Both the position numbers and the translations under genes were made by a program. Below are positions 45,106 through 58,649 of a DNA stretch of 64,000 bases, piece by piece. The stretch spans positions 1 to 64,000 of the forward strand of contig JAFYRS010000051.1 of NCBI GenBank assembly GCA_017546845.1, given 5' to 3'. This DNA is from Akkermansia sp. (lineage in GTDB: Bacteria; Verrucomicrobiota; Verrucomicrobiia; Verrucomicrobiales; Akkermansiaceae). The notes under the pieces were generated by a model, which saw nothing but the letters and a program-made list of their open reading frames with translations, had not been told where the DNA came from and searched no databases. How positions within the stretch are numbered: the first letter of the stretch is position 1; the number at the start of each line of letters is the position of its first letter.

Positions 45106-45134
45106 TTGACTGCAAGTGCACCAGCGGGTATAAT
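45106..45134 (+). promoter_or_regulatory. Strong promoter of the GTPase operon
   Basis: -35 TTGACT (45106-45111), 17-bp spacer, -10 TATAAT (45129-45134). This is the closest match to the sigma-70 consensus in the window. Predicted start near 45141, 15 nt before the ATG at 45156. Confidence 0.8.
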
Positions 45135-45155: not shown

Positions 45156-46898
45156 ATGAACAAGCAACTCTACATATATGATTGTCTGAGCGGAAAACTC
45201 CGTGCATCGGATGGCAATTTCATGACCATCGGCGCAGGAGAGAAAAACACGTTCCGCCTGCGCATGAAGTCAGATAACGGTGGTTCCTTTGCGCAGCGGG
45301 ACAACGTCTGCCGCTTCTTCCCTCATGGGCATGTAAGCAGTTATTCCCTCAACGGCGTTGTCATATCAACAGACGTTGTCATTCACCCGGAGCGCATGTA
45401 TCTGTTTGTCTTGTCCGGCGGTTGCTTTATCTGCTGGTATGGCACTGACTCCTCACGCCCGGATTTCAGCCAGTATGTACCCACCATCTGGTATTTGTAC
45501 AATCCCTCCGCCGCGGAATGGTACGGGCCGTATTCCCTTACAGATTTGCCCATGGTCGCCCCCGAACTACCAGGGGATGTCCTGGCCACCTTCCAGGGGC
45601 TGGAGCATTGCGCCTTCCTGTTGCGGGATATTGTAAGCGTCGCTGAATATGCGGCCAGCACGGCAGAAACTCAGATTGAGGAAAATGTCGGCATGGTCAC
45701 CTCTCCCAGTGAATTGCGCTGCCCGAACTGCTGGGAATTGTTCCGTCCGGCAGAAATTCTGAGCATAGCAAGCCACCCTGAGCTGATGGGCGATGAAAAG
45801 CTCGGCGAGCACGCCATGCGCCGCTTCCTTCCGGAGCGATGGAATCCCAGCGGGTTGCCGCTGGATTCCATGGGCGTCTCCTGCAATGAATACGCATGCC
45901 CGCATTGCCACTGCAAGCTACCGCCGTTCTTCACGGAAACGCACCAGCACATCATTTCTCTGGTAGGTGTGCCGGCAGCCGGCAAAAGTTATTTCCTGAC
46001 CTCCATGGTCAGTGAACTGGAAACCCTGTTCCCGAGGGAATTCGGCATGCCGTTCCGGGATGCAGATCCGGTCACCAATGAGCCGCTCAACGAAATGCGC
46101 ATGCGCTTATTCAGCGCCCAGACGCCACAGGAAGCCTACCTGGCCAAAACGCACATGCATGGGCGGCTGTATCAGAAAATCTGGAAACAAGGCATGCAGG
46201 TCAACATGCCGCGTCCCTTTATCTATAATCTGAACAAGGACGCCGAGACTCACTCCATTGTGCTGTATGATAACGCCGGTGAAGATTTCCAGCCAGGCAG
46301 CGATACGGCACTCACACCCGGAAGCCAGCATCTCTCGGTGGCCTCCGGCATCCTGTTCCTGTTCGACCCCACAGCCAATCCCGGATTCCGCCGCTTGCTC
46401 CAGGAAAGCACAGACCCCCAGTTACGCAACAATCTGTACCGTCCCGGCCGCCAGGCTCTGCTTCTGGCAGAATCAGAGATGCGCCTCCGCACCCGCCTGA
46501 ATCTCCCCCCGTCGGAAAAGCTGCAAGTTCCGCTTGCCATCATCATCGGGAAATGCGATACCTGGAAATACCTGCTGGGGCCGGAGGCGCTGCTCCCCGC
46601 CGTGCGCAACGGCATGTTCATGCCGGAGCACATTGACATCAACTCCACCCGCCTGCGCCAATTCATCTTCAACATTGCCCCGCATATCTGCTCCAGCGCC
46701 GAGGCCATTTCCTCCAATGTGCGCTATTTTGCAGCCAGTGCACTGGGCGAATCCCCGGTCGAATTCATGGATGAACGCAGCGGCACGGTGCTGATTGGCC
46801 CGGCCTCAGGAAGCGTGCGTCCCGTTCGGGTTGCTGAACCTCTGCTCTGGGTGCTGCACAACGCTTCTCCCTCTCTCATCCCCAGTTCGCATAGCTGA
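45156..46898 (+). CDS. FHA-like/GYF-like/zinc-ribbon TRAFAC-type GTPase
   Basis: A 580-residue cytoplasmic protein in four parts. Residues 1-97 are beta-rich and FHA-like (TIGAGEKNTFRLRM, HVSSYSLNGVVI). Residues 110-160 resemble a GYF_2 domain (IWYLYNPSAAEWYGPYSLTD). Cys pairs CPNC (189-192) and CPHCHC (248-253) form a split zinc ribbon. From 265 a GTPase domain carries the P-loop GVPAAGKS (271-278), DNAGE (372-376) and GKCD (465-468), with FAAS as a likely G5. I associate this architecture with predicted GTPase-centred systems of Planctomycetes/Verrucomicrobia; that is recall, not a search. It is the first gene of the operon; the next starts after 5 nt. Confidence 0.75.
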   Translation: MNKQLYIYDCLSGKLRASDGNFMTIGAGEKNTFRLRMKSDNGGSFAQRDNVCRFFPHGHVSSYSLNGVVISTDVVIHPERMYLFVLSGGCFICWYGTDSSRPDFSQYVPTIWYLYNPSAAEWYGPYSLTDLPMVAPELPGDVLATFQGLEHCAFLLRDIVSVAEYAASTAETQIEENVGMVTSPSELRCPNCWELFRPAEILSIASHPELMGDEKLGEHAMRRFLPERWNPSGLPLDSMGVSCNEYACPHCHCKLPPFFTETHQHIISLVGVPAAGKSYFLTSMVSELETLFPREFGMPFRDADPVTNEPLNEMRMRLFSAQTPQEAYLAKTHMHGRLYQKIWKQGMQVNMPRPFIYNLNKDAETHSIVLYDNAGEDFQPGSDTALTPGSQHLSVASGILFLFDPTANPGFRRLLQESTDPQLRNNLYRPGRQALLLAESEMRLRTRLNLPPSEKLQVPLAIIIGKCDTWKYLLGPEALLPAVRNGMFMPEHIDINSTRLRQFIFNIAPHICSSAEAISSNVRYFAASALGESPVEFMDERSGTVLIGPASGSVRPVRVAEPLLWVLHNASPSLIPSSHS

Positions 46899-46903
46899 TT
46901 CCT

Positions 46904-49666
46904 ATGTCATTCCAGCTCATCCACACCAGCTCACCCCATCTGTTGGATTCCGGAGCCTCAGGCTACGGAACCGTGGCGCGCACGGAGGATATGCCCGTTG
47001 CTTTATACAGGCAGCTGGCTGGCATCAGTGTGCTGAAAAACAGCACAGAACAACTGCAATTCAGCTACCGGATACTCTCTGCCTGCGGGCAATCCTGGCA
47101 TGTGCTCAGCTGTGTGCAGGCAGCCGGTGCAGACTATAGTGGCCGCGCGTGCCACACGGCGCATCACCTGGTGTTTTCCCAGCAGGAAGTGGCGCAACTC
47201 CTCAGCCTGCCCCAGCGCCTCACACCCGCCGGTATTTGTCTGGCTCTGCACAAGACCGGGTTCTGGGTCAGCAAGTGGGAGCAAGCCCCCAGATATCTGC
47301 ACGAAGAACCGCAGCTGCAGCCGGAGGCCCAACCCGATGCGACGGCCCAGCCCACCTGGAAACGCCATACCGGCCATAAAGCCAACGCGCGGGCATTTTA
47401 CACGGCTCCGTTTCATAAAGAGAGCCTCGTGGTGCTTCATGAGCCCATGAAGCAGGTGGAGATAATGGCGCTTCTGCACGAAAGCGACTGGTTGTCTCAC
47501 ACGCGGGGCTGGGGCTTCACCTTCACCACCGCAGCAGACGAAAGCGACTCGTTTGCCGAGACCTTACGTATCATGGTCCCCGCTGATTCCCCCTGGATAC
47601 AGCGTGCAGCTCGTACCGGGCATCCGGTATTGCATATCAGTTCGGAACTGGAACTTCCGATAACCCCACCGCCCAGCCTTGCGCTCTCACCGGACTCTGG
47701 CGCACCCGGCGGCAACTTTGTGAAAACACTGGCGCGCAGCACCTCTCACTACCACTACACAGAAGAACCGGATTGGACACTTTTTGACATCCCCATTTCT
47801 GCATCTCCGGTAAAAAAGAAACTGGTGGCAGCCTCGGTCTGCGTCACATGCTGTGCAGCACTTGCCGCCTGGCAGGGATACACCTATACTGCCGCCTCTG
47901 GACAGCAGGATTATGCGGCTCCGGTATCCAGCATGCCGCAGGAGCACAACCCCGTGCTTCTTCTCTCCACCATGCTCAGCGCAACCTATGACCACGATTC
48001 CACGGAGCGGCTCATGCAGGAGCTCTCAGAGCTCCATGGTGAAAGCGCAGAGCATGTATGGCTTACTGAATGTGCGCATCTCATCAGGCAAGCCGGCACA
48101 GCAGAAGCAAATCACGCCGCCGGGCTCAAGCGCATTTGCGAATGCGCCCGCCTGCTGGGGGTGGACGACAAGGCTCTGGCGGAGCTATATATACGCGAAG
48201 CCATCTATGGCAAGACTCCTGAGGAATGGCAGAAAAAGTTTGATTCTGAACAAGTGGAAGAATGGCTCCGGCTTCAACTTTCCGAGCCGGTAATTGCCAG
48301 GGTTTTTGAATCGCCGGCGCTTCAAGCCTTTGCGTCTCGCCGCGAACAGCAGACAGAGCCTCCCCCTCCATTGCTGGCTACGGCGGATACAACGCCGGAA
48401 TCAGAGGCAGAAGAGCCACAGCCTGTCGGACGTGTTTCGCTTATGCCGCAAACGGCGCGCTGTGGGAATCCCGTCCCCGAGCCGCTGGCGCAGGCGCTCA
48501 CTCAGCTGCCGTTAACTATTACAGCAGGTCACTTCGTTGTCTCACCCCTCCAGAAAGGAGACAGCCTGCAGCCATCCCAGCGTCTTGAATTAAGCGAAAA
48601 TGGCTACCGGCTGCATATTTCCGCCACCGGGAACAATGGAGAATACCGTTTAACGCCCAGCCATAAGGAAGGGAAAGAAACCTCTCTCCCTGAAGTCATC
48701 ATTGGCGTGCGCAACGGTAAGTTGCGGTTTATTCGCTGCGAGAAAGGATTTGCAGTACTTTCGTTCCCTGTGCCGAAATCAGAGAATTACTACACCAATA
48801 TCATCCTGGCTCCGGAATTCGGCATCCCGATTCCTGAAGGCAAAGAAATATCGCTCCCGGAGGCCCCCACGATTGACTTCAACATCGAGCCTTCAGACAT
48901 CAGGCTCGTTGGGTCAAATAAGCCCAGGCTGGAACTCATCGGGAAAAAGGCAAAGAAAGATTTTCCCTGGGTTACCAGCAGGAAACTGGTCAGCAAACAC
49001 CAGTTCAGCATCAATCTCCCGGTATTACAAGCGCACAACATCATCAGCATAACGCAGGATTCCAACAGTTCCTTTACCTGCCGGAACACCAGAGTGATTC
49101 GAGAAACGGATAACTTATCGACCCTGCGCTGCGAGATTGAACACTCCCCAGCCATACCCCAAAAACTGAAAACCTCATTTGAACGCATCGCCAATGCACC
49201 CTGCTGCGGGCTGAAAAACGCACCGTCCGGGACTCCGGCTCTGGCAGACCTCTACTATATCATCTCTTCTCTGAAGAACAAGCAGCTTGCATCTTCTGCC
49301 CGGCGCAAGCTGCACCAGGGCTATTTCAAACTTCTGAGCGTTCCTGCATTCAACGCCGAGCTTCAGAAAATTCTTCCGAATCAAAAAGCCCTCATACCAA
49401 CCCCAAAAGAAGCATCTTCAAACTCCTTACGCGGCAGACGCGTGCGTTCGACCATCAGCACAGAGCTGGATAAGGAAGGCATACAGGATTCCATTCTTGC
49501 AGGCATCTGCAGGATGTTCAGCCGTTCCCTGCTGTCTGTCTATGAACAGGAAAAACAACATTTTGAAGAGGCCGGCAAGAAGCGGCCGGCTCTCATGCTC
49601 CGCAGCATCTACCAGAACGAAGACGGCGAGCTCGTGTGGGAGTTCGACCTTCAAAACACAAAATGA
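46904..49666 (+). CDS. GTPase-associated (GAP1-like) protein with one membrane span
   Basis: A 920-residue protein. The first ~130 residues (LIHTSSPHLLDSGASGYGTV, ARTEDMPVALYRQLAGIS, then AGADYSGRACHTAHHLVFS) match my memory of the N-terminal domain of GTPase-associated protein 1 families (HTSxxxGL-xG-xGFxTVAxTxGM and DYSGRxNxxAHH). One hydrophobic helix (KKKLVAASVCVTCCAALAAW, ~303-325) is preceded by three Lys, so the N-terminus should be cytoplasmic and the ~590-residue C-terminal part periplasmic. The latter has a Pro/Glu-rich linker (~485-510) and a beta-rich region. No catalytic motif is recognised. It follows the GTPase by 5 nt and precedes the third component by 3 nt. Confidence 0.7.
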   Translation: MSFQLIHTSSPHLLDSGASGYGTVARTEDMPVALYRQLAGISVLKNSTEQLQFSYRILSACGQSWHVLSCVQAAGADYSGRACHTAHHLVFSQQEVAQLLSLPQRLTPAGICLALHKTGFWVSKWEQAPRYLHEEPQLQPEAQPDATAQPTWKRHTGHKANARAFYTAPFHKESLVVLHEPMKQVEIMALLHESDWLSHTRGWGFTFTTAADESDSFAETLRIMVPADSPWIQRAARTGHPVLHISSELELPITPPPSLALSPDSGAPGGNFVKTLARSTSHYHYTEEPDWTLFDIPISASPVKKKLVAASVCVTCCAALAAWQGYTYTAASGQQDYAAPVSSMPQEHNPVLLLSTMLSATYDHDSTERLMQELSELHGESAEHVWLTECAHLIRQAGTAEANHAAGLKRICECARLLGVDDKALAELYIREAIYGKTPEEWQKKFDSEQVEEWLRLQLSEPVIARVFESPALQAFASRREQQTEPPPPLLATADTTPESEAEEPQPVGRVSLMPQTARCGNPVPEPLAQALTQLPLTITAGHFVVSPLQKGDSLQPSQRLELSENGYRLHISATGNNGEYRLTPSHKEGKETSLPEVIIGVRNGKLRFIRCEKGFAVLSFPVPKSENYYTNIILAPEFGIPIPEGKEISLPEAPTIDFNIEPSDIRLVGSNKPRLELIGKKAKKDFPWVTSRKLVSKHQFSINLPVLQAHNIISITQDSNSSFTCRNTRVIRETDNLSTLRCEIEHSPAIPQKLKTSFERIANAPCCGLKNAPSGTPALADLYYIISSLKNKQLASSARRKLHQGYFKLLSVPAFNAELQKILPNQKALIPTPKEASSNSLRGRRVRSTISTELDKEGIQDSILAGICRMFSRSLLSVYEQEKQHFEEAGKKRPALMLRSIYQNEDGELVWEFDLQNTK

Positions 49667-49669
49667 TTC

Positions 49670-51799
49670 ATGCGACGCCGCCGCACAGACCCCTTTCTCC
49701 ATAAACTCCGGCAACTGAGCAGCAGCGGTCGGAGAACAGAGGCTCTGCAACTGCTACAGGAAACACTGCGGCAAAATCCGAATCATTCCAGAGCCCGGGA
49801 AGAACTGACCCGCCATCTTACCGGGAGGCCCTATACATTTGAAGAAAAAGCCAGCGATGAACTGCAGGAGATACTTACCGGGTATCGCTCAACGCCGGGC
49901 ATGTTGGGAGAATCTGCACCGCGGGCACTCAGGCAACTGAGTAAGCGGCTGCATTATCTCCAGCGCGAGCTGCAGCATATCCTCAGTGAGGCAGACACCA
50001 AAACACTACGGCAGCTCAACCAGGGAATCATGCGCGAGCTGAACCGCCACCGCAACAGCAGAAGCAAGCCATACGGCATCGCCGGTATCTTCCTTATATT
50101 GCTCATGGGTGCCGCCGGGTGTTATTATTATATGAAAGACAGGGCTGAATATGCTGCAACAGCCCTACACCAGGTATGCGATTGCGAGACCACCAGCATT
50201 GATTCGGCCAGGCAGTTATTAGCCGTGCACGATACCGGGCTTAACCGCACATTGTGCCGCAACGTGAGCTCTGGCGCAGAGCGCCTGCGGGCGCATATCA
50301 AGGCAGCATACAACCGGTCAAAGGAACTCGACAGCATTCTCTGCACCATCGAAAGCGGTAAGGAAAGCGTGGTGAGCCAGGGTGTACGCCGCCGTGCAGA
50401 AATTGAACGAATGTTGAAACTGCCGTGCCATCATGCAAAGGAATTACAACAGCGGTGGGCGGCGCTATGCCAGGCAGAACAGGCCGCGCTCAACCAGCAA
50501 CGCATGGAACAGGTCAAGGAACTGTTAGCCCCTGTTCCCGACCGGGAAGCACTCAGTGGGCAGGTGGAGGCGGATTTGCGCACTGTGGAAACCCGCTGCA
50601 AATTTCTGCAGCAGCGCTTGCTGCTGTTTGAAGATGCAGGCGAAACACTTGGTATAACAACTGATGATATAAAGCCGTTGCTCGACGAATATGAAGCCTT
50701 AACCAGCCTGAAACAGGAAATCAAGGCTCTGCAACGGTTGTTGTTCCTGCTTCCCGCTGCGCATGATTACGCAACCTACCGGGCATTTCTGGCAGAGATG
50801 AAGCCCCGGCATTACGCGCCAGCTATCGAATTGCTGGAGGTTCTTCAGCAAATACCAGAAGAAGACACCGTCCGCGGTATGATGCAGGAACATGGCCAGA
50901 ACCTCCGCCCCGGGCTCTTGCAAGCCTCCCGCAAAAGCCTGCTGGAGAATGGCGCGACTTTCAGTCAGGAATTTCCTGCCACGCGGGAACAATTGCTTCT
51001 GCTTGAGGAACTCACCTCAAACACAGCGCTCAGAACCCGGATGTACGAGCTGACTGACACTGCAGAAAACAAGCAGGCCTATGCTGAAAAACTACCAGAA
51101 CTGCGCGCCGGCCGGGCCTGTATTGTGCGTTCACCGCTGGACCCGATGCGCACCATGCAGGAGAATCAGACAGAGGAATGGCATAATCCGCATGCTATCG
51201 TCAGCCGGGAAATAGATCCGCGGCCGTTGTGCTTTGAGCTGGGGCTTGATAAGCGCAGCCTTTTTCTCACCACGGCGAACCTTCCCAGCCTGCTTACCAA
51301 GGTTTTCCACATAGAAGGAGCGCACATTCCAGCACTGGCAAGAGCATACGTATTCCACCATCTGGTGCAGGCTAATGCAGGCGCAGCCGAACCTATCCTC
51401 AGCGGGCTGCGCTTTGCCCCGGCCATGCGCCAGATTATAGAGGAATTCGATGCTCTCCGGGCAGAGGTCGGCATAGAATTGAACGGCAACTGCTGGTTGT
51501 ACTCAAGCCCCCTGCATACCTCAGCCGAACGTAAATTTGCCCATTGGTTCCACAAACACCGCAAATGCAACTTTACGGCGGAACTGCAACGGAACCTCGG
51601 GACCCTCCTCCGCGTTGCGCCCCGTTTCTGCGGGTACATCAACGAACAGGGGCAGCCGGTTTTGTTTGAAGAAACGAAACCCGGCAAGCTCATCTGGTAC
51701 ATGGGGGCCGATGCTGCAATGACCACCAGCCCATGGGGTGAAACGCTGCATCATCCTGTCCGGCTCTCACCTGTTTTTACTGTAGAAAGGCAATTTTAA
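49670..51799 (+). CDS. TPR-like/coiled-coil membrane protein of the GTPase operon
   Basis: A 709-residue protein I cannot assign to a named family. The basic start MRRRRTDPFLHKLRQLSSS leads into a TPR-like repeat (GRRTEALQLLQETLRQNPNH, ~20-40) and helices to ~130. One membrane helix (YGIAGIFLILLMGAAGCYYY, ~134-154) follows basic residues, so the N-terminus is predicted inside and ~555 residues outside. The region ~190-430 is heptad-rich and probably coiled coil. The C-terminal ~200 residues are globular, ending LSPVFTVERQF. Together with the two genes before it, it forms the core of the system. The next gene starts after 5 nt. Confidence 0.6.
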   Translation: MRRRRTDPFLHKLRQLSSSGRRTEALQLLQETLRQNPNHSRAREELTRHLTGRPYTFEEKASDELQEILTGYRSTPGMLGESAPRALRQLSKRLHYLQRELQHILSEADTKTLRQLNQGIMRELNRHRNSRSKPYGIAGIFLILLMGAAGCYYYMKDRAEYAATALHQVCDCETTSIDSARQLLAVHDTGLNRTLCRNVSSGAERLRAHIKAAYNRSKELDSILCTIESGKESVVSQGVRRRAEIERMLKLPCHHAKELQQRWAALCQAEQAALNQQRMEQVKELLAPVPDREALSGQVEADLRTVETRCKFLQQRLLLFEDAGETLGITTDDIKPLLDEYEALTSLKQEIKALQRLLFLLPAAHDYATYRAFLAEMKPRHYAPAIELLEVLQQIPEEDTVRGMMQEHGQNLRPGLLQASRKSLLENGATFSQEFPATREQLLLLEELTSNTALRTRMYELTDTAENKQAYAEKLPELRAGRACIVRSPLDPMRTMQENQTEEWHNPHAIVSREIDPRPLCFELGLDKRSLFLTTANLPSLLTKVFHIEGAHIPALARAYVFHHLVQANAGAAEPILSGLRFAPAMRQIIEEFDALRAEVGIELNGNCWLYSSPLHTSAERKFAHWFHKHRKCNFTAELQRNLGTLLRVAPRFCGYINEQGQPVLFEETKPGKLIWYMGADAAMTTSPWGETLHHPVRLSPVFTVERQF

Positions 51800-51804
51800 C
51801 CACC

Positions 51805-52296
51805 ATGCTTGTTGCCCTGCTATCAGATATTCACGACCACACCACCAACCTGCTGCTTGCCTTGCACGCAGCGCAGGAGCAGGGGTGCAGGCATCTGCTT
51901 TTCATGGGTGATATGGCTGAAGCATCGACCTTTACCACCTTGCGGGAAGAATGGCCACACCCCATTGACCTCGTTTTCGGTAACAATGAATACGAGATAA
52001 AGAGCTTTGCCCGCATGGCGGAACAATGGCCGCAGACCACCCTGCACGGCTCTCATGCCGATATGGTGCTGGATTCCCGCCGCATCTACTTCTGCCACCT
52101 GCCCTGGCAAGCTGCGCAGACCGCCTCGTCCGGGCAATACGATGCCGTTTTTTACGGACACACGCACACACCGGAAGTCCTGTATGCAGGCAACACACTA
52201 CTCGCCAATCCCGGCGAGGTATACGGGCGCCAGAATCCGCCCACAATCGGAGTGTACGATACGACCACCAACTCCATCCGCATCATCCCCATCTGA
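51805..52296 (+). CDS. YfcE/MJ0936-family metallophosphoesterase
   Basis: A 163-residue phosphodiesterase with calcineurin-like metal motifs LLSDIHDHTTN (DxH), FMGDMAEA (GD), FGNNEYE (GNxE; usual GNCD), YFCHLPW (usual GH) and FYGHTHTPEV (GHTH). Family members hydrolyse phosphodiesters such as bis-pNPP in vitro; some act on cyclic nucleotides. GNNE and CHLP are deviations from the standard GNCD and GH motifs. The gene follows the GTPase-operon core by 5 nt and touches the next gene with no gap. Confidence 0.85.
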   Translation: MLVALLSDIHDHTTNLLLALHAAQEQGCRHLLFMGDMAEASTFTTLREEWPHPIDLVFGNNEYEIKSFARMAEQWPQTTLHGSHADMVLDSRRIYFCHLPWQAAQTASSGQYDAVFYGHTHTPEVLYAGNTLLANPGEVYGRQNPPTIGVYDTTTNSIRIIPI

Positions 52297-52875
52297 ATGG
52301 ATTACCTTGTGTACAACATGGCCGCGTTGCCTGAATCGCTGGTCGACACCAGCCTGTTCCCGCCCGAGGAACAGGAGCAGGCAGTCTTGCGCGGCAAACG
52401 CTATGCGCTCATCCGCACTCTGCTGCGGCAGGAGCTCTCGCGCCGTTGTCCCTCTCCTCCGCAGGAAATCCGTTTCTCATACGGACCACAGGGGAAACCC
52501 GAATATGCCGCCCAGCCGTTCAACATCAGCCATTCGGGAGATTGCCTCTGCCTGGCTTTTCACCATCTGCCCATCGGGGTGGATGTGGAGCGGCTGAGGC
52601 CCAGGGCCTTTTCCAGACTGGCGGCGCGTTTCATGAGCCCGGAGCAGCTGCGCGGATTCATGGAGCGCGGCTGTCCGCAAGATGAGTTTTACGCTTGCTG
52701 GTGCGCCGCTGAAGCGCTGGTAAAACACGCCGGAGATACCATGTGGAACGCGTTGAATTATCCTTTCATCTACAGCCACGGGCGCATCATCTGCCAGTTT
52801 TCACCAGCCCCCGCCATACATCTCTTCACCCCCATGCCCGGCTATTGCGGGGCTGTTGCCTACACATCTGAATAA
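52297..52875 (+). CDS. 4'-phosphopantetheinyl transferase (Sfp-type)
   Basis: Transfers phosphopantetheine from CoA to a carrier protein. The 192-residue product has FNISHSGDCLCLAF, IGVDVERLRP (metal-binding D and E) and FYACWCAAEALVKHAG. That last motif corresponds to W-xx-KEA-xxK, with the first Lys replaced by Ala but Glu and the second Lys kept. RPFS/ARFMSPEQ precedes it as usual. No carrier protein or synthase is in the window, so its target is elsewhere. Its ATG directly follows the phosphodiesterase stop. Confidence 0.87.
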   Translation: MDYLVYNMAALPESLVDTSLFPPEEQEQAVLRGKRYALIRTLLRQELSRRCPSPPQEIRFSYGPQGKPEYAAQPFNISHSGDCLCLAFHHLPIGVDVERLRPRAFSRLAARFMSPEQLRGFMERGCPQDEFYACWCAAEALVKHAGDTMWNALNYPFIYSHGRIICQFSPAPAIHLFTPMPGYCGAVAYTSE

Positions 52876-52885
52876 ATCAAACACC

Positions 52886-53701
52886 ATGCCATTCCACACA
52901 CAACTCATCATTACCATTCTGGCCGGGTCTCTCACGTTCTGCCTGGCTCTTGGTGCTGCTGGCGCGCTCATCCAACGCAGCAAACACTCATTACCGCCCG
53001 TACCCGTCTTTCCTGGGTCAGGTTTCCCCGGGGTATTTACCAAGTTCTACACAGCATTCTTCCTGATTACCTTCGGGATGTCTGCCATCGCGGAATGCAT
53101 GATGCCCGGTGAGCAGCAACTCAATGACGTGGCGCTGCCAGGCCTGCTTCTCAGCAGTGCATTGCAGGTTCTGCTTTACCTGCCACTCATCATCGTTTAT
53201 TTTGCACAGCCCTCGCAGCGGGGAGAGAAAACCACCCTGGCACGCAAAGCCCTGTGGTGCATTGCGGGGTTGGTGCTGCTGTTCATCCCTGCTGCTGTGC
53301 TGCAGGTTTCCGGGTTCAATGACTGGCTCATCCAGACCACGGGCTGCCCGGCTCAGCAGAATGTAGTGGAATACATGCAGCACAGCTCGCTGAGTGTTAA
53401 AATCACGCTCGCGTTCATGGCGGTCATCGTTGCCCCCATCACCGAGGAATGCTGCTTCCGCGGCTGCCTGTACAACATCCTGCGCCAGTATTCATCTCCG
53501 TTCCTGGCAGCACTGGCCTCAGGCATCCTCTTCGGGGCTATCCATACCTCACTTGCCCAGGTGGTGCAACTCACCATTTTTGGCATCATGCAGTGCTACG
53601 CATACGAAAAGGCACGTTCTCTCTGGCTGCCCATAGCGCTTCACATGCTGTTCAACGCCACCAGTGTCACCCTTCTCTTCTTATGCCCGATACCATATTA
53701 G
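52886..53701 (+). CDS. CPBP-family intramembrane metalloprotease
   Basis: A 271-residue membrane protein with about seven hydrophobic spans. The Abi/CPBP motifs are complete: APITEECCFRGCLYN (EExxxR), FGAIHTSLAQ (FxxxH) and HMLFNATS (HxxxN). Eukaryotic relatives (Rce1) cleave prenylated proteins; bacterial ones are linked to bacteriocin self-immunity or envelope proteolysis. The ATG at 52886 starts a signal-like first helix. It overlaps the thiL start by 19 nt and belongs to the tail of the GTPase operon. Confidence 0.88.
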   Translation: MPFHTQLIITILAGSLTFCLALGAAGALIQRSKHSLPPVPVFPGSGFPGVFTKFYTAFFLITFGMSAIAECMMPGEQQLNDVALPGLLLSSALQVLLYLPLIIVYFAQPSQRGEKTTLARKALWCIAGLVLLFIPAAVLQVSGFNDWLIQTTGCPAQQNVVEYMQHSSLSVKITLAFMAVIVAPITEECCFRGCLYNILRQYSSPFLAALASGILFGAIHTSLAQVVQLTIFGIMQCYAYEKARSLWLPIALHMLFNATSVTLLFLCPIPY

Positions 53702-54570
53702 CCGAACTTGGCGAAAACGCCATCCTCAAGCGTCTGCTGCGGCATCTTCCTGTCAATGATTCTCTCCTTACCGGACCGGGCGATGATTGTGCCGTCGTGG
53801 CGCGCGATGACCAATGGGATACCTTACTGAAAACGGATGTGGTGGTCGAAGGACTGCACTTCACTCCTGATACAGAGCCGGAACGCATCGGTCGCAAGGC
53901 TCTGGCCAGAGCCGTCTCTGACATTGCCGCCATGGGGGGGCTGCCGGAGCATGCGCTCATCACGGTGCTTTGCCACCGTTCCCGCCCGGTCCGCCTGCTC
54001 GAGGGCATTTACCGGGGAATGGGGGCTCTCGCCCGCCAATTCGGCATTTCCCTCGCTGGTGGAGAAACCTCTGGCCTGCCGTATGACGGGCTGGTCATCA
54101 ATGTTGCCCTCACCGGGCGCGTGGAGCGAGGACAGGCGGTTCTGCGCTCCGGTGGTAAACCTGGCGACCAGATTTTCGTTTCAGGCCTCCTGGGCGGCTC
54201 TTTCCCCACAGGGTGGCATCTGGACTTCGAACCGCGTGTGGAGCTCGCCAGAGGTCTCCTGAAGGCCGGAATCCGCCCTTCTGCGATGATGGACCTCTCC
54301 GATGGCCTCGGTTCGGACCTGCCACGCCTTGCGGCTGCGAGTAACTGCGGTTTTGAAATAGACGAATCCGCCCTTCCTTGCCGCCCCGGGTTCTCCGTGG
54401 AAGACGCTGTTTCACACGGAGAGGACTATGAACTGCTCCTCACCTTCCCTCCCGAACAGGCGCAAAAGCTTGCAAGTTCACCATTTGCAAATGACTTGCG
54501 ACACATCGGGAAATTGCTCCCCTTTCAAAGCTCAAACATCGTCTCCGGCTGGCAGCATTTTAGCGCATAA
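53683..54570 (+). CDS. thiL: Thiamine-monophosphate kinase
   Basis: Phosphorylates thiamine monophosphate to the active cofactor. The 295-residue protein has TGPGDDCAVV, LLKTDVVVEGLHF, GRKALARAVSDIAAMGG (metal-binding Asp), SLAGGETSG, MDLSDGLGSDL and HGEDYELLLTF, the AIR-synthase-like ThiL set. The ATG at 53683 starts MPDTILAELGENAIL, which fits the family; upstream reading frame overlaps the CPBP gene and is rejected. No other thiamin gene is near. An intrinsic terminator follows. Confidence 0.95.
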   Translation: MPDTILAELGENAILKRLLRHLPVNDSLLTGPGDDCAVVARDDQWDTLLKTDVVVEGLHFTPDTEPERIGRKALARAVSDIAAMGGLPEHALITVLCHRSRPVRLLEGIYRGMGALARQFGISLAGGETSGLPYDGLVINVALTGRVERGQAVLRSGGKPGDQIFVSGLLGGSFPTGWHLDFEPRVELARGLLKAGIRPSAMMDLSDGLGSDLPRLAAASNCGFEIDESALPCRPGFSVEDAVSHGEDYELLLTFPPEQAQKLASSPFANDLRHIGKLLPFQSSNIVSGWQHFSA

Positions 54571-54590: not shown

Positions 54591-54618
54591 AAAGAGAGCC
54601 TTCAAAGCTCTCTTTTTT
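54591..54618 (+). terminator. Terminator ending the GTPase-thiL operon
   Basis: Arms AAAGAGAGC (54591-54599) and GCTCTCTTT (54607-54615) with a 7-nt loop, followed by TTT. Confidence 0.85.
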
Positions 54619-56497: not shown

Positions 56498-56920
56498 ATG
56501 ATGAGAATATCCACCAAGGGCCGCTATGCCCTGCGAATCATGTTAGACCTGGCACAGAATGACGACCTGGGCCCCGTGGCTTTGCGTGAAATTTCCGAGC
56601 GCCAGAACATCACCCCTAAGTACATGGAAAGCATCATGTCCATGCTGCTGCGTGATAAACTGGTGCAAAGCCTGCGCGGCAAAGCCGGCGGCTACCAGCT
56701 CACCCGCAAGCCGGAGGAATACCCCATTTATGAAATTCTCAGCTGTGCAGAAGGCGGTCTTGCCCCGGTGCACTGTCTGGCCATGGAGGAAAACGAATGT
56801 CCCATCCGTAGGACCTGCCTGACCATCCCGGTCTGGGAGGGTCTGCACCAGGTCATTAAGGATTATCTGAGCGGAATCACCCTCAAAGCCCTCATAGAAC
56901 AAGGAGCTAACTGTGTATAA
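56498..56920 (+). CDS. Rrf2-family regulator with three cluster-binding cysteines
   Basis: A 140-residue winged-helix regulator. It begins MMRISTKGRYALRIMLDLAQ, the Rrf2/IscR signature, with ISERQNITPKYMESIM as the recognition region and LRGKAGGYQL in the wing. Cys93, Cys101 and Cys107 (C-x7-C-x5-C; IscR has C-x5-C-x5-C) could ligate an Fe-S cluster and make it a redox, NO or iron sensor. It does not sit by isc/suf genes. It overlaps the glycosidase gene by 8 nt, and the promoter serves both, so autoregulation would set the glycosidase level. Confidence 0.9.
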   Translation: MMRISTKGRYALRIMLDLAQNDDLGPVALREISERQNITPKYMESIMSMLLRDKLVQSLRGKAGGYQLTRKPEEYPIYEILSCAEGGLAPVHCLAMEENECPIRRTCLTIPVWEGLHQVIKDYLSGITLKALIEQGANCV

Positions 56921-58649
56921 GAACCATACCTTCCATCCCCTCATGTCAGCCGCCATTATATCGACAATGGCGGTTCCTGCTGCTATGGCCATTGAACTCA
57001 ATGCGGCAGATTACGGTGTCTGCCCTGGCGGGAAAGACTGCGGCGCCGCCATGCTCAGCCTGCTTGATGCAGCCCGCGAGAAAAACGCCAGCGCCATCAA
57101 TCTGGAACCGGGGGAATACCACTTCCACCAGGCCAGTGCGCGCGACATGCAGTTATATATATCTAACCACGACCAGCAGCCGAAGCACGCCGTAGCCCTG
57201 CCACTCACCGGCATGCAATCATTGGAAATCAACGGCAACGGAGCCCGTTTCATCTTTCACGGACTCATGCTGCCCATCGTCATCCAGGACAGCTGCGATG
57301 TCACCATCAACAACCTGAGCATTGACTACGCCGAACCGTTCTCCTCAGAAGGCCGCATCGTTGATATCACCAATGGCAAGACAACACTGGAAATGAGCCC
57401 GGCCAGCCGCTACACCGTCGAGAACGGCAAATTCCTGCTCACCAACAACGGGCGCAAGGACGCACTGCATTGCGTCCTCGCCTTTGAAGCCGACGGCCGC
57501 ATGGTACCCACCGGCAAATCCGGCGACATGGCCTGGTACGCCGCCGCAGAGCAACTGCCTGGCAACCGAGTCCTCTTTGCCGAGGATGCCACCCACAAGG
57601 GGCTTTCGGTGGGGCAGACGCTCGTCATGCGCACCTACTACCGCCCGCATCCCGGCATGCTGCTCTACAGGGCGAAGCGTACCACGCTGAACAACGTTGT
57701 CTTCCATGACAGCCAGGGAATGGCCCTCATTGCCCAGCGCAGCGAGGACATCACCATCCGGGGCGGCGGCTGCATCCGCGCCCGTGGGCGCATGCACACC
57801 ACCGCGGCAGATGCCACCCACTTCTCCAACTGCCGCGGCTACATCAGCGTGCAGGGTGCCACCTACGAAGCCATGATGGACGATGCCATCAACGTACATG
57901 CCACCTGTCTCGGCATTCAGAAGGTGGAATCTCCGCGCACGTTCATCGCCCGCTACATGCACGGGCAGGCCTACGGCTTCGAAGTCATGGAACCCGGTGA
58001 GCAGCTCCAGTTCATCCACGGCCCCACGCTGGAACTCAATCCCCAGCTCCGCCAGGTGGCAAGCGTTGAAGTCATCGACCCCCGCCATGTGCGCGTGACA
58101 CTCACCGAGGATGTTCCGACCGGCATCGGCGCGGGAGATGCCATCGAGAACGCCGACTGGCATCCCAGTGTTGATTTCAGCGGAAACACCATTCGCCACA
58201 ACCGCGCCCGCGGCGCGCTCTTTACCACGCCCAGACCCGTGCGCGTCATCGGCAATCACTTCGACCACACCCACGGCTCTGCTATTCTGCTGGCAGGTGA
58301 TGCCCAGGGCTGGTATGAAAGCGGAGCCTGCCAGGATGTGCTTATCCAGGGCAACGTGTTCCGCCACGGTCTCACCGGTCTCTACCAGTTCACCGATGCT
58401 CTCATCGCCATCTGCCCCGAAGTGCGCCAGCCGGAAAAACAAGTGCAGAAATACCACCGCAACGTCCGCATCACCGGCAACCACTTCATCACCCACCGGG
58501 TTCCCCTGCTCTCCGCCATTTCGGCTGAGGATGTGGATTTCTCCGGTAACAAGATAGAGTACCACGACATCTACCCGGCTCAGTCCGGCGGACGCCCCTG
58601 GCTGCTCAAGCAGGCCTGCGGTGAAATGAAGCTGCAGACCACCGAATAA
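56913..58649 (+). CDS. Secreted alpha-1,3-galactosidase, GH110 family
   Basis: A 578-residue secreted glycosidase expected to remove alpha-1,3-linked galactose (blood-group B or linear B glycans of mucins). The signal peptide is MSAAIISTMAVPAAMA, within residues 11-26. The right-handed beta-helix body shows GH110-like motifs: MQSLEINGNGARFIFHG, INNLSIDYAEPF, MMDDAINVHATCLGI, MHGQAYGFEVMEPGEQLQFI and IRHNRARGALF. The GTG at 56913 is preferred to the ATG at 56943 because AAGGAG stands about 6 nt upstream; it is one of the few clear Shine-Dalgarno sites here. It overlaps the Rrf2 stop by 8 nt. Akkermansia muciniphila is known to encode GH110 enzymes. Confidence 0.82.
   Translation: MYKNHTFHPLMSAAIISTMAVPAAMAIELNAADYGVCPGGKDCGAAMLSLLDAAREKNASAINLEPGEYHFHQASARDMQLYISNHDQQPKHAVALPLTGMQSLEINGNGARFIFHGLMLPIVIQDSCDVTINNLSIDYAEPFSSEGRIVDITNGKTTLEMSPASRYTVENGKFLLTNNGRKDALHCVLAFEADGRMVPTGKSGDMAWYAAAEQLPGNRVLFAEDATHKGLSVGQTLVMRTYYRPHPGMLLYRAKRTTLNNVVFHDSQGMALIAQRSEDITIRGGGCIRARGRMHTTAADATHFSNCRGYISVQGATYEAMMDDAINVHATCLGIQKVESPRTFIARYMHGQAYGFEVMEPGEQLQFIHGPTLELNPQLRQVASVEVIDPRHVRVTLTEDVPTGIGAGDAIENADWHPSVDFSGNTIRHNRARGALFTTPRPVRVIGNHFDHTHGSAILLAGDAQGWYESGACQDVLIQGNVFRHGLTGLYQFTDALIAICPEVRQPEKQVQKYHRNVRITGNHFITHRVPLLSAISAEDVDFSGNKIEYHDIYPAQSGGRPWLLKQACGEMKLQTTE

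Follow-up and report, generated by a model that had tools for sequence, protein, structure and literature searches.

We analyzed a window of 64,000 nucleotides from an Akkermansia sp. genome (assembly GCA_017546845.1, contig JAFYRS010000051.1, positions 1 to 64,000), in which three consecutive genes encode proteins of 580, 920, and 709 amino acids. The gaps between them are 5 nt (genes 1 and 2) and 3 nt (genes 2 and 3), as an earlier sequence-only reading of the same DNA, made without database searches, had described. Profile matches place the first two genes of this trio firmly among the GAP1-N2-type GTPase-centric systems, a class that Kaur et al. (2020, eLife; PMC7159879) defined computationally and for which they predicted a conflict function. 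The pair of a GTPase and a GTPase-associated protein 1 named in the sequence-only reading is DO-GTPase2 plus GAP1-N2 by Pfam, the pair of Kaur et al., and no experimental papers on DO-GTPase/GAP1 systems were found in the literature searched. The source genome, that of a gut Akkermansia, is 2.03 Mb in size and 82% complete, and the named genomes closest to it are those of Akkermansia sp. from the ruminant gut; labels beginning with L and G below denote loci and genomes, respectively.

Gene 1 exceeds the Pfam cut-off for DO-GTPase2 narrowly (27.2 against 27 bits), and all but one of the 38 sequences in the alignment on which we scored motif conservation match the same family. Its G1, G3, and G4-like motifs are conserved to the degree listed in Table 1, and a single invariant CxxC...CxxC set lies N-terminal to the GTPase domain, where Kaur et al. 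describe zinc ribbons, usually two (PMC7159879). The window agrees with the class in combining a DO-GTPase2 that has the G3 glutamate, an N-terminal zinc ribbon, and an adjacent GAP1 protein of the GAP1-N2 type. FHA-like and GYF-like parts had also been proposed for gene 1 along with the zinc ribbon. Neither PF00498 (FHA) nor PF14237 (GYF_2) matches the window protein, and a reading of the alignment did not show in it the IGR and SRxH motifs typical of FHA domains that bind phosphothreonine; FHA is, however, called in 11 of the 38 sequences (best, 1.7e-17) and GYF_2 in 6 (best, 3e-11), so the assignment is sound for degenerate versions of both, and W112 and W122 of the GYF_2-like segment are invariant among the closer sequence set. 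The idea that this fusion is distinctive of the window protein did not stand, since relatives have both parts too, but the fusion does set the window apart from the systems that Kaur et al. describe. Those are likewise reported from Verrucomicrobia and Planctomycetes, with GYF proteins nearby in planctomycetes (PMC7159879). A phmmer search of the GTPase against PDB sequences returned no match, and NCBIfam gave none either.

The N terminus of gene 2, read earlier as resembling GTPase-associated protein 1, is assigned to GAP1-N2 (PF20013) with 41.2 bits against a cut-off of 24, and 30 of 31 aligned sequences match as well. GAP1-M was called in 24 of these 31 and not in the window protein, and residues 250 to 920 of the latter have no Pfam match, so GAP1-C was not called. 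GAP1 proteins range from 266 to 1052 amino acids, and in many Lentisphaeria they have only ~300, corresponding to the N2-M part alone, indicating that this part is the core of the protein. The idea that the predicted periplasmic part is a copy of the third protein found no support (hhalign probability, 2.4%). A suspected fusion of GAP1 with the third protein in L140 was rejected, since an overlapping open frame there encodes a short GAP1 (~294 amino acids) and then the third protein. A separate observation concerns L184 (G154:C178), whose nucleotide identity to window positions 47672-49071 jumps from ~85-95% to 98-100% inside GAP1 and remains so up to the contig end, while the third protein of that genome has 84% protein identity to that of the window; this jump may stem from a recent recombination event within GAP1 or from a metagenome contig that is chimeric.

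No Pfam model fits the product of gene 3, here termed P3, and its TPR matches are all sub-threshold. The size given in the sequence-only reading is correct, and these matches and a structure model point to a TPR-like N-terminal part. The 709-amino-acid Akkermansia protein aligns with the ~1000-amino-acid proteins found 3' of GAP1 elsewhere (hhalign, 99.3%, E 9e-21, and 98.9%, E 1.4e-17), and distant homologs occupy the position behind GAP1 across Verrucomicrobiota and Lentisphaeria as well as in some Planctomycetota. P3 adjoins GAP1 in 63 of 80 loci (in 68 of the 80 the sequence extends 1 kb or more beyond GAP1, and a few of the 63 are clipped by contig ends). Because the P3 profile was built partly from GAP1 neighbors, we also searched 241 genomes of the phylum regardless of position, and this recovered GAP1-N2 in 37 genomes, P3 in 32, and both in 28, compared to 4.9 expected (P ~1e-24), with the two on the same contig in 26 of the 28. 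By its alignments P3 is a conserved family without a Pfam model, one that may be listed in the supplement of Kaur et al.; the third partner once called distinctive is no local oddity, although three Akkermansia species lack it and in four it outlives the GTPase. It stands in place of the fibronectin type III (FNIII) protein of the systems described by Kaur et al.; PF00041 had no match in the window's genome, at the completeness given above, and no fn3 domain was found in gene 3. Because this component was not found, we consider the window system a variant rather than a standard member. It also departs from the systems of Kaur et al. in that a variable effector domain was not seen and the chromosomal neighborhood is common to many Akkermansia.

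The C-terminal domain of P3 also ends proteins of 877 to 879 amino acids encoded beside a zinc-ribbon Ser/Thr kinase (657 to 660 amino acids) in the two loci in which the neighbor was checked (L042 3809-9006, minus strand; L043 8652-13463, plus strand). From its sequences this pair is a putative kinase-linked sister system, and near-full-length relatives of the ~880-amino-acid proteins occur in 16 genomes of the genus.

GAP1 and P3 are each predicted to cross the inner membrane once, which would place large, fast-evolving parts of both in the periplasm. Most Akkermansia members have a single hydrophobic segment with basic residues on its N-terminal side, and nearly all of the ~1000-amino-acid P3 homologs also have one transmembrane (TM) segment; components bearing TM segments are likewise part of the GAP1-N2 systems that Kaur et al. 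describe. The structure models of GAP1 and P3 have predicted local distance difference test (pLDDT) values of 79.5 and 86.6, respectively, and both have a predicted template modeling (pTM) score of 0.42, so that only single domains are usable. The P3 model consists of TPR-like helices, a TM helix, long helices, and an alpha/beta end; Foldseek found no match to it among solved structures (best E value, 0.24), and its VIA matches, mostly helical arrangements, were not relied on, nor were DUF903-type small lipoproteins matched at residues 456 to 523 (Z 5.3-6.2). The VIA list for GAP1 is filled by matches of the N-domain, with the periplasmic parts barely represented, and 9 of its 10 best rows are of the longin/DENN/TagF type (Z 5.7-6.9); the matches include FLCN, a Lokiarchaeal longin, TagF, DENND1A (214 residues), a GATOR1 subunit, and Lst4.

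These matches are only suggestive, but they indicate that the closest likeness to the fold predicted for the GAP1 N-domain is with longin/DENN GTPase regulators (FLCN-FNIP2, DENND1A, GATOR1, and MglB/Roadblock relatives), and like these the domain adjoins a GTPase. It differs from them in that no sequence similarity was detected, the GTPase belongs to another family, and GAP1 has a predicted TM helix and periplasmic region; longin, DENN, and Roadblock are not mentioned in the main text of Kaur et al. (PMC7159879). The structure of TagF, from the type VI secretion system, aligns with GAP1 residues 1 to 267 (Z 6.6; root mean square deviation, 5.5; 215 residues). TagF works through binding an FHA-domain protein (PMC5995506), and gene 1 has an FHA-like domain, but no type VI secretion genes were seen beside the trio, the deviation is high, and identity is 6%, which makes the likeness a lead only.

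The consensus promoter that had been noted ahead of gene 1 is present and conserved. Its exact TTGACT-17-TATAAT pattern occurs only 4 times in the genome; since the region holds 4 promoter-like sites compared to 5.0 expected, a single site of such quality is not unusual alone, and we tested its conservation for this reason. In 51 of 51 Akkermansia loci, 9 or more of the 12 positions are matched within the 110 nt 5' of the GTPase gene, and in 46 of the 51 the match is 10 or better. Matches of 10 arise in 0.7% of shuffles and in just 1 of 216 regions 5' of the GAP1, P3, YfcE, and 4'-phosphopantetheinyl transferase (PPTase) genes. The promoter is a real footprint. The first terminator-like hairpin comes only after a thiL-like gene, so the predicted transcript comprises seven genes and not three; the transcription unit is probably longer than the trio, and a CAAX-type protease gene is probably part of it. 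The trio and genes 4 and 5 sit between panC and thiL-dnaA, with priA, panC, a lolD-like gene, thiL, and dnaA, all housekeeping genes, as neighbors.

Table 1. Features of the GTPase-GAP1-P3 locus (positions in the window)
Feature	Position	Strand	Basis
Sigma-70-type promoter, TTGACT-17-TATAAT	45106..45134	+	Kept before the GTPase gene in 51/51 Akkermansia loci
Gene 1, DO-GTPase2-type GTPase, 580 aa, without TM segment	45156..46898	+	Pfam PF19993, 27.2 bits; 37/38 relatives match
FHA-like N-terminal domain, degenerate (residues 1-100)	45156..45455	+	FHA called in 11/38 relatives; alignments
GYF_2-like segment, degenerate (residues ~105-165)	45468..45650	+	GYF_2 called in 6/38 relatives
Zinc-ribbon cysteines C189, C192, C248, C251	45720..45908	+	All four invariant in 38 sequences
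G1/Walker A GVPAAGKS (residues 271-278)	45966..45989	+	G271, G276, K277 invariant
G3 motif DNAGE (residues 372-376)	46269..46283	+	At least 90% conserved
G4-like motif KxD (residues 466-468)	46551..46559	+	K466, D468 invariant
Gene 2, GAP1 protein, 920 aa	46904..49666	+	Pfam PF20013 GAP1-N2 at residues 1-101, 2.1e-10
GAP1 cytoplasmic N2 (+M-like) region, residues 1-245, longin-like predicted fold	46904..47638	+	Pfam, model
GAP1 predicted TM helix, residues 302-329, N-in	47807..47890	+	Hydropathy, K/R balance; helix in model
GAP1 predicted periplasmic region, residues 350-920: helical, beta-rich, and mixed C-terminal parts	47951..49663	+	Model
Gene 3, third partner P3, 709 aa	49670..51799	+	Homology to ~1000-aa third proteins (hhalign); no Pfam family
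P3 predicted cytoplasmic helical TPR-like part, residues 1-128	49670..50053	+	Model; sub-threshold TPR matches
P3 predicted TM segment, residues 137-155, N-in	50078..50134	+	Hydropathy
P3 conserved C-terminal domain, residues 524-705	51239..51784	+	Common to proteins beside Ser/Thr kinases
Gene 4, YfcE-like calcineurin-fold phosphoesterase	51805..52296	+	Pfam Metallophos_2, 4.9e-25
Gene 5, PPTase superfamily protein	52297..52875	+	Pfam ACPS, 7.6e-10
CAAX-type (Rce1-like) membrane protease	52856..53701	+	Pfam PF02517, 1.5e-22
thiL-like gene (AIRS family), last of predicted transcript	53689..54570	+	Pfam AIRS; start inferred from ~293-aa homologs
Terminator-like hairpin, closes operon	54591..54615	+	3' of thiL-like gene

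Of 76 Akkermansia genomes, 52 encode the GTPase, as do 10 of 145 genomes of the sampled family, 3 of these outside the genus. A survey of gene neighborhoods demonstrates that the trio stays together well beyond Akkermansia, with the same gene order in Opitutae, Lentisphaeria, Kiritimatiellota, and Planctomycetota; the genes were neither placed in unrelated housekeeping families by profile searches nor found dispersed in relatives. A cultivable carrier of the trio is Oligosphaera ethanolica DSM 24202 (L242). In many species lolD-panC precedes the trio or thiL-dnaA follows it, and pairwise distances of the trio are correlated with the dnaA and panC distances (r, 0.49-0.82), which suggests mainly vertical descent; the overall picture is one of largely vertical inheritance and repeated loss and not that of a mobile island. 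Nonsynonymous divergence (dN) from genome G173 is 0.06 for the GTPase and 0.05 for panC but 0.31 for GAP1 and 0.28 for P3, ~4-5 times that of the GTPase. The ratios of nonsynonymous to synonymous divergence (dN/dS) for the same comparison are 0.05 (GTPase), 0.11 (GAP1), and 0.14 (P3), with dS near saturation; dN/dS is well below 1 wherever measurable, indicating purifying selection, and gene-wide positive selection was rejected for the pairs with estimable dS. In G193 a ~65-codon C-terminal remnant of the GTPase gene lies directly 5' of an intact P3 gene (L179 8442-8690), and to judge by this remnant the site is a deletion scar from which the GTPase and GAP1 were removed and P3 retained. More distant GTPase-GAP1-third-gene systems lie at L032 1934-9082, L174 4940-11793, and L175 4099-10979 and belong to Akkermansia G071 and G157, as second copies, and to G145.

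Topology, motifs, and linkage lead us to interpret the trio as a GAP1-N2-type system acting as a transmembrane GTPase switch, a reading to which we assign a probability of roughly 0.55. The cytoplasmic GTPase, with its FHA-like, GYF-like, and zinc-ribbon parts, would be the switch itself. GAP1 would place a GTPase-regulator domain of predicted longin-like fold in the cytoplasm and, beyond its one helix, a large predicted periplasmic domain, and P3 would have the same topology, with a TPR-like cytoplasmic part, one helix, a long helical stalk, and a small C-terminal domain. Changes at the periplasmic parts would alter the action of GAP1 and P3 on the GTPase, presumably by direct contact, and the GTP or GDP state would then determine an output in or at the membrane. 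The family assignments, conserved GTPase motifs, gene linkage, conserved promoter, and purifying selection with rapid divergence of GAP1 and P3 are observed; the single TM segments and domain folds are predictions; and contacts between the proteins, the direction of signaling, and control of the GTPase by GAP1 are proposals.

Several observations weigh against this interpretation. Four species (G188, G193, G195, and G199) retain P3 without the GTPase and GAP1, and three (G149, G157, and G164) are without P3, so the parts of the trio are not strictly interdependent. The G3 motif is broken in some GTPase orthologs (L034, L164, and L170), which have lost DNAGE and kept the rest of the protein, making them possible switch-dead orthologs. 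The TM calls come from a simple hydropathy scan, and the pTM values of both models make the domain arrangement unreliable. For the regulator fold, Foldseek returned no match to the GAP1 model with an E value of <0.001, the longin Z scores are below 8 and may reflect a common arrangement, and no longin, DENN, or TagF Pfam match was found among the 31 GAP1 sequences and no PDB sequence match was returned, in searches whose HMMER filters may miss remote relatives.

A different function is an anti-phage or conflict system, in which variable GAP1 and P3 would sense an invader, the GTPase would set a threshold, and the membrane or a linked phosphoesterase would effect containment or suicide. This is the published class prediction, and in the sister GAP1-N1 type, according to Kaur et al. 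(PMC7159879), the effector is most often a calcineurin-type phosphoesterase; the patchy occurrence in the genus, the rapid evolution and variable length of GAP1, and the possible recombination inside it would all suit such a role. We nevertheless consider it unlikely. The trio has no PADLOC match, no toxin, nuclease, or pore domain was called in it by Pfam, it lies among housekeeping genes whose distances it tracks, suggesting mainly vertical descent, it is under purifying selection, and the YfcE-like gene is also found in genomes without the system. The class of system proposed in the sequence-only reading is borne out, while the conflict half of its "conflict or signaling" role gained no support here.

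Control of cell polarity or of an envelope machine, with the trio placing or gating a type IV pilus or a type II secretion-like machine in the manner of MglA/MglB, is similarly doubtful. MglB is small, soluble, and of the Roadblock type and is not known to have a membrane-spanning partner of the GAP1 or P3 kind. The MglA/MglB polarity switch joins a bacterial GTPase to a longin-related regulator, as the trio may do, longin domains being thought to derive from MglB-type regulators (PMC3521125), and DO-GTPase genes are reported in some psp envelope-stress operons (PMC11237479). In many Lentisphaeria the trio is followed by a PilM-like gene of ~600 codons, sometimes together with a PilO-like gene (L227, L228, L230, L233, L237, L242-L246, L251, L254, and L256); PilM_2 matches 12 of 20 scanned downstream proteins (best, 1.6e-23) and PilO matches two. 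The Akkermansia operon, however, has no PilM-like gene, the linkage in Lentisphaeria could be lineage specific, and a pilus or motility role is putative. Genomic context favors neither the conflict nor the polarity/secretion role strongly, and there is no direct sign of defense. Least probable is a five-gene unit with the metallophosphoesterase or PPTase as the regulated output enzyme: almost every Akkermansia locus has both genes 3' of the trio, the order GTPase-GAP1-P3-YfcE-PPTase is constant while the flanks vary, and PPTase and GTPase occur together in 49 of 76 genomes (neither in 17, one alone in 10), but the YfcE-like gene is present in 71 of the 76, including genomes without the GTPase, and may therefore be a bystander, G179 retains the PPTase beside thiL-dnaA without the trio, and the downstream genes scanned outside Akkermansia did not belong to these families.

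The transmembrane GTPase switch also permits a more specific proposal, which we offer tentatively: a G-protein relay in which a longin/DENN-like domain, wired through one helix to a fast-evolving periplasmic sensor, would act together with another single-pass protein, P3, from a new family, to control an FHA-bearing GTPase, and in which the C-terminal module of P3 would serve both GTPase and kinase signaling. To the DO-GTPase/GAP1 systems these results add a third family, a predicted topology, a conserved promoter, and a candidate regulator fold, in a genus that is medically interesting. Should GAP1-N2 prove to be a regulator of the longin type, it would be a membrane-anchored bacterial example of a fold that organizes eukaryotic membranes. 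Elsewhere in the window, near dnaA, positions 56913-58649 encode a beta-helix protein of the GLAA-B type, which is probably a galactosidase-like enzyme that is secreted.

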